Shown here: one piece after another, positions 15,663-44,250 of the stretch
Position numbering within the stretch: position 1 is the first letter of the stretch
Layout: every line of letters begins with the position of its first letter
Source of the DNA: a virus
Length of the DNA: 51,493 nucleotides
Reading direction: 5' to 3' (one strand)
Virus record (IMG/VR): IMGVR_UViG_3300045955_000245
Span: 1 to 51,493 of that record
The notes under the pieces: model-generated
What the model was told of the DNA's origin: nothing
The model's database searches: none
The model's input: the letters and a program-made list of their open reading frames with translations, nothing else
Translations under genes and position numbers: made by a program

Positions 15663-15738
15663 TAGAATAAGGGAAACGAACACGCCCCCGCGACGCTGGA
15701 ACGTCCGGGGGCACGGCACCAGCAAGGGGGTCTTGCCG
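15663..15738 (+). promoter_or_regulatory. Structured HNH leader RNA, copy 1
   Basis: TAGAAT (15663-15668) is a -10-like box. Hairpin 1 has an outer stem 15684-15690/15706-15712 (GCCCCCG with CGGGGGC), a bulged C at 15691, inner stem GACG/CGTC and loop CTGGAA. ACGGCACC (15713-15720) follows. Hairpin 2 (GCAAG/CTTGC) presents GGGGT, part of the Shine-Dalgarno, in its loop just before the ATG. Copies 2 and 3 at 25986 and 43643 share this plan with compensatory changes. Confidence 0.8.
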
Positions 15739-16362
15739 ATGCAGCCTCAGCGTAACAAGCGGCATGCGCCGCTGCCGCCCACGCAGCGAGTTTGTGAGCA
15801 TTGTGGGCAACTGTTCATCGTCTACCACGCGGACCTTCGGCGTGGCCACAGCCGCTTTTGCGGCAACGCCTGCCATATCGCCCACCGCTACGGTTCGATT
15901 GAGCAACGCTTCTGGAAGAAGGTGGACCAGACTTCCAACCCCGATGGCTGTTGGCTCTGGACTGGGTGGCACGACGCGGCCGGCTATGGGGAAATGTCCA
16001 TTCCTGGAACCGGACGCAACACGAAAGCCCATCGTGTCGCCTACCTGTTGACGAAGGGGCCAATCCCGGACGGCCTGCTTGTGTTGCACCGCTGCGACAA
16101 TCCGCCCTGCGTGCGGCCTGGCCATCTCTTTCTTGGCACCCAGGGAGACAATGCGCGGGATAGGGAAGCAAAAGGCCGCGGGCGGCAACCGCGAGGTGAG
16201 CGGACTGGTCGAGCCAAATTGGACGCCACTCGCGTCTCCGCTATTCGTGCTCGCTATGCGTCGGGCACTGCGTCTCAACCACAACTGGCCCGCGAGTACG
16301 GAGTATCCACCAGCTTGATTAGTCTCATTGTTCGTCGGGAGGCGTGGCGGCACATTTCCTGA
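15739..16362 (+). CDS. HNH homing-type endonuclease 1
   Basis: 207 aa. An N-terminal zinc finger (CEHCGQL...CGNACH) precedes an HNH_3-type nuclease domain: CWLWTGWHDAAGYG, AHRVAYLLTKGPIPDG and LHRCDNPPCVRPGHLFLGT hold the HNH histidines and Asn. The C-terminal helix-turn-helix-like part (RAKLDATRVSAIRARYA, QLAREYGVSTSLISLIV) would recognise DNA. It is free-standing and antisense to the surrounding operon, inserted at the 5' end of the amidase gene. Two relatives lie at 26061 and 43717; this copy alone has the N-terminal zinc finger. Confidence 0.9.
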   Translation: MQPQRNKRHAPLPPTQRVCEHCGQLFIVYHADLRRGHSRFCGNACHIAHRYGSIEQRFWKKVDQTSNPDGCWLWTGWHDAAGYGEMSIPGTGRNTKAHRVAYLLTKGPIPDGLLVLHRCDNPPCVRPGHLFLGTQGDNARDREAKGRGRQPRGERTGRAKLDATRVSAIRARYASGTASQPQLAREYGVSTSLISLIVRREAWRHIS

Positions 16363-25985: not shown

Positions 25986-26060
25986 TACAATGAAGGCGCC
26001 AAGACGCCCCCGCGCTGCGTCAACAGCCGGGGGCACGGCACCCAGACTCAGGAGGTCTGA
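25986..26060 (+). promoter_or_regulatory. Structured HNH leader RNA, copy 2
   Basis: TACAAT (25986-25991). Hairpin 1: outer stem GCCCCCG/CGGGGGC (26006-26012/26028-26034), bulged C at 26013, inner stem GCTG/CAGC, loop CGTCAA. ACGGCACC at 26035-26042. Hairpin 2: CAGAC/GTCTG (26043-26047/26055-26059) holds the Shine-Dalgarno AGGAG in its loop. ATG is 70 bases from the start of the -10-like box, as in the other copies (69-76). Confidence 0.8.
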
Positions 26061-26600
26061 ATGCCCAACCAGCGTACCACTCGATCCCACCACGTTTCTG
26101 GCCCTAAGCCACGGCCACTGACCGATCGGTTCTGGGCGAAAGTCCAGAAAACCAAGTCGTGCTGGCTGTGGACCGGGAGCCGCAACGAGCACGGCTACGG
26201 GAGCATCCTGGGCAATGACCGCCGCTTGATCCACGCGCACCGCGTCTCGTGGGAACTGGCGAACGGCCCAATCCCCGCCGGCGTGGACGTGCTCCACAAC
26301 TGCCCCGGCGGCGACAACCCGTCCTGCGTCAATCCGGCCCACCTGTGGCTCGGCACGGCGACGGACAATAGCCGGGACATGGTGCGGAAGGGCCGCCACT
26401 ACGCCCACGCCACGCCCGAGCGCGTCCTGCGTGGCGAGCGGCACGGACACGCTAAGTTGACCGATGCCCAAGTCCGCACCATCCGCGCCCGCTACGCCCA
26501 GGGCGGCGTCACACAAACCGAACTCGGCCGGCAATTCGGCGTCCACGTCAGCCTCGTGCATCTGATTGTCCACGGGCGTATCTGGCGTCATTTGCTGTAG
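26061..26600 (+). CDS. HNH homing-type endonuclease 2
   Basis: 179 aa. LTDRFWAKVQKTKSCWLWTG, HAHRVSWELANGPIPAGVDV and LHNCPGGDNPSCVNPAHLWL hold the HNH_3 nuclease motif (His, Asn/Asp pair, zinc-like Cys residues, His). A C-terminal HTH-like segment follows (HAKLTDAQVRTIRARYAQGG, ELGRQFGVHVSLVHLIV). No N-terminal zinc finger. Antisense to the tail operon and inserted after codon 7 of the tail terminator gene. Confidence 0.9.
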   Translation: MPNQRTTRSHHVSGPKPRPLTDRFWAKVQKTKSCWLWTGSRNEHGYGSILGNDRRLIHAHRVSWELANGPIPAGVDVLHNCPGGDNPSCVNPAHLWLGTATDNSRDMVRKGRHYAHATPERVLRGERHGHAKLTDAQVRTIRARYAQGGVTQTELGRQFGVHVSLVHLIVHGRIWRHLL

Positions 26601-26621: not shown

Positions 26622-26665
26622 ATCACATCACATCACATCACATCACATCACATCACATCACATCA
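26622..26665. repeat. ATCAC pentamer microsatellite at a gene junction
   Basis: About nine units of ATCAC between the stop of the HK97 gp10-like gene and the original terminator start. In the sense strand this is a run of TGATG motifs, each a stop-start overlap. Copy number could vary by slippage. Confidence 0.95.
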
Positions 26666-43278: not shown

Positions 43279-43659
43279 CTACCGACACGCCCAGTGGCGT
43301 GCGTAGCCGTTGGCGAGCGCCCATCCCGCCACCTGCGCCGCGGCGACCGGGTCATACGGCGATGCGCCGCCCCACCCCGCCTGCCAACTCATCCACCGCC
43401 AGGTGGCCGCGGAGAACTGGTACAGGCCGGCGTGCCCGCCGCGCGACGTGACCCACGGTTGATAGCGGCTTTCACAGGCCGCAACGCTCAGCAGCCACTG
43501 CTCACTCACCCCATGATCGACGGCTGCCTGGTGGATCGCCTCGGCCACTTCAACCGACTGGGCATTTCCAGCAGTAAAGCTGGCTCCCCAAACACAGCCG
43601 AGACCCAACCCCGCCGTGAACCAGATCACCAGGAGCAGTCGGTACAATAAGGGCAGCAT
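43279..43659 (-). CDS. Secreted SLT/Rpf-like lytic transglycosylase
   Basis: 126 aa from ATG 43659. A signal peptide or anchor ([20 protein letters not shown]) precedes a lysozyme-fold domain: catalytic Glu in [14 protein letters not shown], then [20 protein letters not shown] and [19 protein letters not shown]. It cleaves the glycan strand of peptidoglycan, as a second wall enzyme to the amidase, possibly for DNA entry, lysis or wall opening for a secretion-like system (VirB1-like). Its 5' ~60 codons are a replacement: the original 5' end survives at 44253-44456 beyond the HNH insertion. Confidence 0.8.
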
Positions 43660-43716
43660 GTGGCCCCGGCGGCGCACGAACGCCCCGGGGCCTGGCACCG
43701 GAGCTGGAGGCTCACG
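43643..43716 (+). promoter_or_regulatory. Structured HNH leader RNA, copy 3
   Basis: TACAAT (43643-43648). Hairpin 1: outer stem GGCCCCGG/CCGGGGCC (43662-43669/43685-43692), bulged C at 43670, inner stem GGCG/CGCC, loop CACGAA. TGGCACC at 43693-43699. Hairpin 2: GAGC/GCTC (43701-43704/43710-43713) holds GGAG in its loop. The leader overlaps head to head the start of the transglycosylase gene (ATG 43659). Confidence 0.8.
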
Positions 43717-44250
43717 ATGCGCTTCAAGGATACCCCTGACTTTCGCGATAGGTTCTGGTCCAAGGTGGACCGCCGTGGCGGCCCGGATACGTGTTGGCCG
43801 TGGCTGTTCGCCAGAGACACCAAGGACTACGGCTCGCTTGGTAATGGGTGGGGCAAGACCATCCGCGCCCACGTCGTGTCCTACGAGTTGACCTACGGCC
43901 CCGTCCCTCGTGGCCTGTACGTCTGCCATGCCTGCGATAACCCACCCTGCGTCAATCCGCGGCACTTGTGGCTTGGGACTCCAGCCGAGAACTCGGCGGA
44001 TATGTCCGCAAAGGGTCGAGCGCGAGGTCGCATCTACCGGGGCGACGAACACTGGACCCGCCGACATCCCGAATGGCTCCTGCGGGGCGGGGCGGCCACC
44101 AGCGCAAAGCTGACCGAGGCGGATGTGCGAGCCATCCGTGCCTTGCGCATCCAAGGGCTTTCCCTTGAAGCGATCGGCACGCGATTTGGCGTGACGTTCT
44201 CGACCGTGAGCAATATCTGCCTCGGTCGAACCTGGCGCCACGTTCGCTGA
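43717..44250 (+). CDS. HNH homing-type endonuclease 3
   Basis: 177 aa. [39 protein letters not shown] and [20 protein letters not shown] hold the HNH_3 motif (His in AHVVSYEL, Asn and His in [13 protein letters not shown]); the C-terminal helices ([36 protein letters not shown]) give a helix-turn-helix. Plus strand, antisense to the transglycosylase operon, inserted just before the catalytic ACES motif. Closest in plan to HNH copy 2. Confidence 0.9.

Follow-up and report, generated by a model that had tools for sequence, protein, structure and literature searches.

Why should three HNH endonuclease genes of one virus begin behind the same RNA structure, and which of the two DNA strands does that structure serve? 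The window, meaning the whole stretch of 51,493 nucleotides analysed here, is an IMG/VR virus record. An 80-nt leader with one common plan precedes each of its three HNH_3 genes and ends at the gene's ATG; by alignment, the products of genes 2 and 3 are 52% and 44% identical to that of gene 1. The original prediction took these leaders for protein-binding, autoregulatory hairpins of the HNH mRNAs. All three were found at their predicted positions (15663, 25986 and 43643), each reaching the ATG of an HNH_3 open reading frame (ORF), and their plan was as described: TANAAT, an outer stem of 7–8 bp, a bulged C, a 4-bp inner stem, the six-base loop CNNNAA and GGCACC. The inner stems of the three leaders use different bases and keep the pairing.

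The description of the remaining parts needed revision. The second hairpin with the Shine-Dalgarno (SD) sequence was present, although it is longer than claimed, at about 10–11 bp on the opposite strand, and closes over the start codon. The supposedly constant GGCACC was also present but is one arm of this second hairpin rather than a separate element, and the conserved element is not confined to the leader but continues into the gene as far as an ANNNTAYC box. We refer to the large (first) hairpin as SL2 and to the second hairpin, over the SD and start codon, as SL1. The sense −10 box of HNH gene 2 has a weak −35 partner, TCGCCA, with an 18-nt spacer. Directly after the stop codon of the same gene, at 26622–26665, lies a perfect tandem repeat of ATCAC (8.8 copies).

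A covarying structure in viral and bacterial genomes

A covariance model (R1) built from the three leaders recovered the element at full length in other viral contigs, with E values down to 1e-12, both in contigs fetched by HNH protein and in contigs fetched by DNA pattern alone. We then considered a gene-blind IMG/VR pattern, CCCGCGNNGCNNNAACNNCCGGG, which leaves two inner base pairs free and sets no condition on genes. Among the matches listed, both free positions were Watson-Crick pairs in 68 of 75 distinct matches and occurred in 10 combinations; 10,000 shuffles of the matches gave a mean of 12.5 and a maximum of 25 with both paired, all counts being without phylogeny correction for copies that are not phylogenetically independent. 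The selected, covarying RNA structure that had been proposed for the start of HNH translation is thus well founded. In 37 aligned copies, 8 out of 11 SL2 pairs changed on both sides, a biased count that serves as illustration only, since the rows had been pre-selected for pairing.

A search with a related pattern in one genome per bacterial or archaeal species returned 100 stretches spanning Actinomycetota, Planctomycetota, Chloroflexota, Myxococcota, proteobacteria and others, judged by record titles. As anticipated, the element is not a named motif: Rfam 15 gave no family above its gathering score, and at E values up to 1 there were chance-level hits elsewhere, none of them relevant. Phages carried one to five copies, and the extra copies that the model found in multi-copy records again stood mostly before HNH-like genes. 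We also considered whether apices have been selected to diverge between copies in one phage. This was unsupported, as the differences were no greater than chance (identical apices in 1 of 40 within-genome copy pairs versus 1.7% of random pairs).

The structure evolved on the opposite strand

A C·A on one strand is a G·U on the opposite strand. We compiled 178 copies and counted stem exceptions, that is, non-Watson-Crick pairs; SL1 was tested sequence by sequence because MAFFT could not align it. On the gene strand, the ratio of C·A to G·U was 21:0 in SL2 and 111:1 in SL1, versus 322:191 in controls in which each half of the same sequences had been shuffled. The opposite strand gave the better fold in 95.5% of the 178 copies, with a mean gain of 5.5 kcal/mol, and shuffled SL1 controls showed no fold bias toward that strand. 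Since both the wobble pairs and the better fold lie on the opposite strand, selection acted on RNA made from it: the structure tracks the opposite-strand RNA, not the sense mRNA. A wobble-pair strand test can therefore reverse the reading of a “leader motif”.

These data bear directly on the idea that the structure belongs to the HNH mRNA as its 5′ leader and is bound there by the HNH or another protein for autoregulation or for control of the ribosome-binding site (RBS) in cis. Such a leader would fit the location of the SD within or next to the second hairpin and the recurrence of the bulge and the CNNNAA loop throughout (the search itself demanded both). It would also fit the sense TANNNT box, which 77 of 169 copies have 20–36 nt ahead of the bulge (46%, versus about 6% in control windows). 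However, the wobble pairs exist on the opposite strand only, and the conserved −10 box inside the gene, described below, would be left unexplained. The element also precedes many unrelated proteins, and given this diversity HNH binding cannot be its general function. On strand and target diversity together we rejected a protein-binding HNH mRNA leader as the main reading, and we regard it as very unlikely. An RBS-sequestering sense hairpin of the homing-endonuclease type was rejected as well, because by wobble strand and by fold the structure does not evolve as sense mRNA.

A promoter box and a tail define predicted antisense RNAs

The ANNNTAYC motif is conserved inside the gene; on the sense strand, its TA follows the first base of the ATG by about 11–15 nt. 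The spacing between ANNNTA and the hairpin is nearly fixed, and the box was present there in 86% of 196 copies, compared with 5.5% in control windows. Read on the opposite strand, the motif is GRTANNNT and supplies T-12, A-11, T-7 and G-14. These are the key bases of a sigma-70 −10 box, G-14 being that of the extended −10. Copies of the box are found in each of the three codon phases (89, 24 and 12), and it is therefore no protein motif; the preference among phases may in part reflect selection against in-frame stop codons. Its middle is GC-rich. The accompanying −35 signal is weak, with at least four of six matches in 23% of copies versus 8–18% at all but one control offset, and that offset, −30, outscored the real spacing (34% versus 23%).

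The A-rich 5′ flank of the hairpin on the gene strand corresponds to a U-rich 3′ tail on the opposite strand, a weak U-tract mostly with 3–5 U in the last 9 nt. A simple terminator scan of the window did not call SL2 itself as a terminator. The conserved promoter −10 box and the U-rich tail, both on the opposite strand, also speak against reading the structure on the gene strand, as had been done originally.

We set the RNA start 7 nt after the antisense −10 box and built a second covariance model (R2) on the antisense strand, with copies 1 and 2 of the window in the training set and copy 3 outside it. In the window, R2 matched exactly three places, the three leaders, all on the minus strand (Table 1). 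Each predicted RNA folds as two clean stem-loops. SL1 has about 10–11 bp in all three, starts at RNA nucleotide 1, includes the complement of the start codon and carries a C-rich anti-SD in or beside its loop; in the predicted fold, the GGCACC of the leader is explained as the SL1 arm that would pair, with one wobble, to the start-codon region. By sequence and structure, the predicted RNA lies opposite its target and overlaps the SD and the start codon. Moreover, each sense mRNA is predicted to begin where its antisense partner has its 3′ end, and its leader would thus be covered over the full length.

Table 1. Positions in the window of the HNH genes, their sense promoter boxes and the predicted antisense RNAs
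Feature	Position	Strand	Evidence
HNH_3 endonuclease gene 1	15739..16362	+	Pfam E 4e-12
Sense −10 box TAGAAT, HNH gene 1	15663..15668	+	Sequence; predicted mRNA start ~15675
Predicted antisense RNA 1, 68 nt	15675..15742	-	R2 match 15675-15756, 71.5 bits (training copy); −42.1 kcal/mol, z −4.57
RNA 1 SL1, 11-bp stem including anti-start codon, anti-SD in loop	15716..15742	-	Fold
RNA 1 SL2, terminator-like GC hairpin, 6-nt apex UUNNNG, bulged G	15684..15712	-	Fold, family alignment
RNA 1 U-containing tail after SL2	15675..15683	-	U enrichment across family
Putative antisense −10 box 1, GTTACGCT, inside HNH gene 1	15749..15756	-	Family motif, ANNNTAYC on sense strand
HNH_3 endonuclease gene 2	26061..26600	+	Pfam HNH_3
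Sense −10 box TACAAT, HNH gene 2	25986..25991	+	Sequence; predicted mRNA start ~25998
Predicted antisense RNA 2, 68 nt	25997..26064	-	R2 73.1 bits (training copy); −39.1 kcal/mol, z −3.38
RNA 2 SL1 with anti-SD	26038..26064	-	Fold
RNA 2 SL2, terminator-like hairpin	26006..26034	-	Fold
Putative antisense −10 box 2, GGTACGCT	26071..26078	-	Family motif
HNH_3 endonuclease gene 3, helix-turn-helix at C-terminus	43717..44250	+	Pfam HNH_3
Sense −10 box TACAAT, HNH gene 3	43643..43648	+	Sequence; predicted mRNA start ~43655
Predicted antisense RNA 3, 67 nt	43654..43720	-	R2 54.9 bits, E 6.5e-16 (non-training copy); −44.5 kcal/mol, z −4.83
RNA 3 SL1 with anti-SD	43695..43720	-	Fold
RNA 3 SL2, terminator-like hairpin, 8-bp outer stem	43662..43692	-	Fold
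Putative antisense −10 box 3, GGTATCCT	43727..43734	-	Family motif

Genes that start under the element

The RNA from the opposite strand could be real and yet chiefly serve the gene next to it on that strand, as a leader or as an attenuator with SL2 as the regulated terminator. The layout of the window lends itself to this view: the HNH genes sit between minus-strand frames, and one such frame opens just left of each leader. Across the family, however, the strands of the upstream neighbours were split 27:27, from which it follows that the RNA belongs to the downstream gene and is no leader of a divergent gene, and an ORF with its SD and start codon in register lies downstream in 161 of 178 copies. 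We rejected the attenuator on the neighbour strands and consider it extremely unlikely. The AAAG before the hairpin had raised the thought of an ssDNA-transposon end, which would leave the registers of SD, start codon and −10 box unexplained. ANTAR target RNAs have two hairpins with six-base loops that carry A at position 1 and G at position 4; here the loop reads CNNNAA in sense and UUNNNG in antisense and the other loop is C-rich, and this candidate was also dropped.

Our survey of targets covered 100 non-redundant proteins of viruses, including seven that had been obtained through HNH-based searches or belong to the window. HNH_3 was matched by 35 of them, and further targets matched HNH, HNH_5, endonuclease VII and GIY-YIG-type families (family counts can overlap; PHROGs agree). 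Homing-type endonucleases thus make up roughly half of the viral targets. The remainder includes integrase, serine recombinase, primase, helicase and RadC proteins and small proteins of unknown function, and the targets in bacterial genomes include HTH_36 proteins, ArdC-type proteins and integrases.

By the original prediction, a lack of the leader in most homologous HNH genes would count against it, and this was partly the case. Among 50 viral records fetched by HNH protein alone, a full-length match to the element was present in 12 and lacking in 38, although several of these loci had different upstream hairpins in the same architecture, some with the element's −10 box. In five of them (L020, L033, L038, L052 and L058), an SL1 over the SD and a long terminator-like hairpin, different from that of the family, preceded the HNH gene, and ANNNTA also followed the start codon in L020, L038 and L058. 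The class is therefore wider than the sequence family. No empty sites without the HNH gene were found in the just two contigs retrieved, which were 100% identical in the neighbouring protein.

Proposed mechanism

We consider it likely that the element is a cis-encoded antisense RNA gene lying across the region where translation of a mobile DNA-cutting gene is initiated, and that its RNA would block this translation. Transcription, termination and repression by the predicted RNA, and the copy-number rationale, are what we infer from these sequence features. A promoter in codons 4–6 (GRTANNNT on the opposite strand) would start an RNA of 62–72 nt (about 68) at about the start codon. SL1 would present the complements of the start codon and SD, its loop containing or adjoining the C-rich anti-SD. 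SL2, a bulged GC hairpin whose apex is UUNNNG, would together with the U-rich tail end the RNA close to the point at which the sense mRNA starts. The product would be complementary to the entire 5′ leader of the endonuclease mRNA. Pairing would probably begin loop to loop, at SL1 (SD) and at SL2 (variable apex), and would block ribosome binding, so that the endonuclease might be kept low as copy number rises in the replicating phage. To judge from its sequences, the family looks like a widespread off-switch for selfish DNA-cutting genes.

Alternatively, the RNA might act mainly in trans, its exposed CCUCC-like anti-SD loop titrating the SD sequences of other phage or host mRNAs. Most copies do show a C-rich anti-SD within the SL1 loop or adjoining it, but the remainder of SL1 differs from locus to locus and is a perfect complement of the gene it overlies, and nearly every copy of the element lies over a start codon; we think this use quite unlikely. 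As for the antisense RNA in cis, one extension of it seems to us rather doubtful, namely that it is a portable cassette of phages and other mobile elements in many bacterial phyla, placeable over any start codon. In this reading, five variable apex letters would serve each copy as an address, allowing control that senses copy number separately for each, and an incoming phage could have the same gene silenced by the resident copies. If the address reading were true, several selfish endonucleases in one phage would be under separate control.

Relation to known systems

Among the selfish genes of phages, free-standing homing endonucleases are common, and to our knowledge little is known of how their expression is restrained outside T4-like phages. 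A conserved antisense RNA on a good share of them would offer a general answer. The family would also provide a large number of natural pairs of antisense RNA and target in which the apex varies, and would serve as a marker for mobile endonuclease cassettes in metagenomes. Antisense control as such is known, but this RNA family, the way it is built and its link to phage homing endonucleases appear to be new; in the literature searched, which was covered in part, antisense RNA on phage HNH genes was not described.

IS10 RNA-OUT is an antisense RNA of 69 nt; its first 35 nt form the complement of the translation-initiation region in the transposase mRNA, and it works mainly at high copy number (PMC5006887). 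The predicted RNAs are alike in being antisense RNAs of about 69 nt opposite the start of a mobile-element DNA enzyme gene, covering its translation-initiation region, with convergent promoters, here predicted ones, at the gene start. They are unlike RNA-OUT in their targets, mainly phage HNH endonucleases, in the spread of the family over many phages, in being built of two hairpins, one with an anti-SD loop and the other the terminator-like SL2, and in that repression is here a prediction. We know of no sequence relation between the two.

The Asr9 antisense RNA of ISPpu9, likewise complementary to the structured 5′ UTR of a mobile-element gene, aids translation of its target by opening that UTR (PMC8450116). 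Since Asr9 helps expression, the sign of the effect on HNH genes is not certain. An antisense RNA over the start codon and RBS that holds down a nuclease also recalls the type I toxin-antitoxin systems SymE/SymR and RalR/RalA: SymR lies over the start codon and RBS of the nuclease gene symE, and RalR is a prophage DNase (PMC4147584). The targets here are diverse, and a role of the HNH proteins as toxins or in an addiction module would be speculative. In T4-type homing endonuclease genes (I-TevI, segB and mobE), hairpins in the sense mRNA sequester the RBS and restrain translation (PMC2988022). The phage HNH genes would similarly be held low at translation by RNA structure at the RBS, but the structure evolved on the antisense strand.

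Further copies of the element

In Streptomyces genomes (L331, L334, L350, L359 and L367), the element precedes a family of helix-turn-helix proteins (MRIHRI...), and these copies are perhaps on integrative or plasmid elements. In the isolated Arthrobacter phages Richie and Zucker (L318:2490-2562 and L526:1495-1567), it stands before the first rightward gene, opposite the leftward genes on the integrase side, a site that is a possible control point between lysis and lysogeny. Four loci (L205, L247, L274 and L295) are ordinary-looking terminators with GAAA...TTTC stem ends that share the hairpin core and apex of the element and seemingly lack the gene-start register; possibly they reuse its hairpin, or they arose by convergence. 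Phage G051 carries two identical copies (L488 and L489) on two different, related HNH-type genes, which suggests a recent duplication of the cassette.
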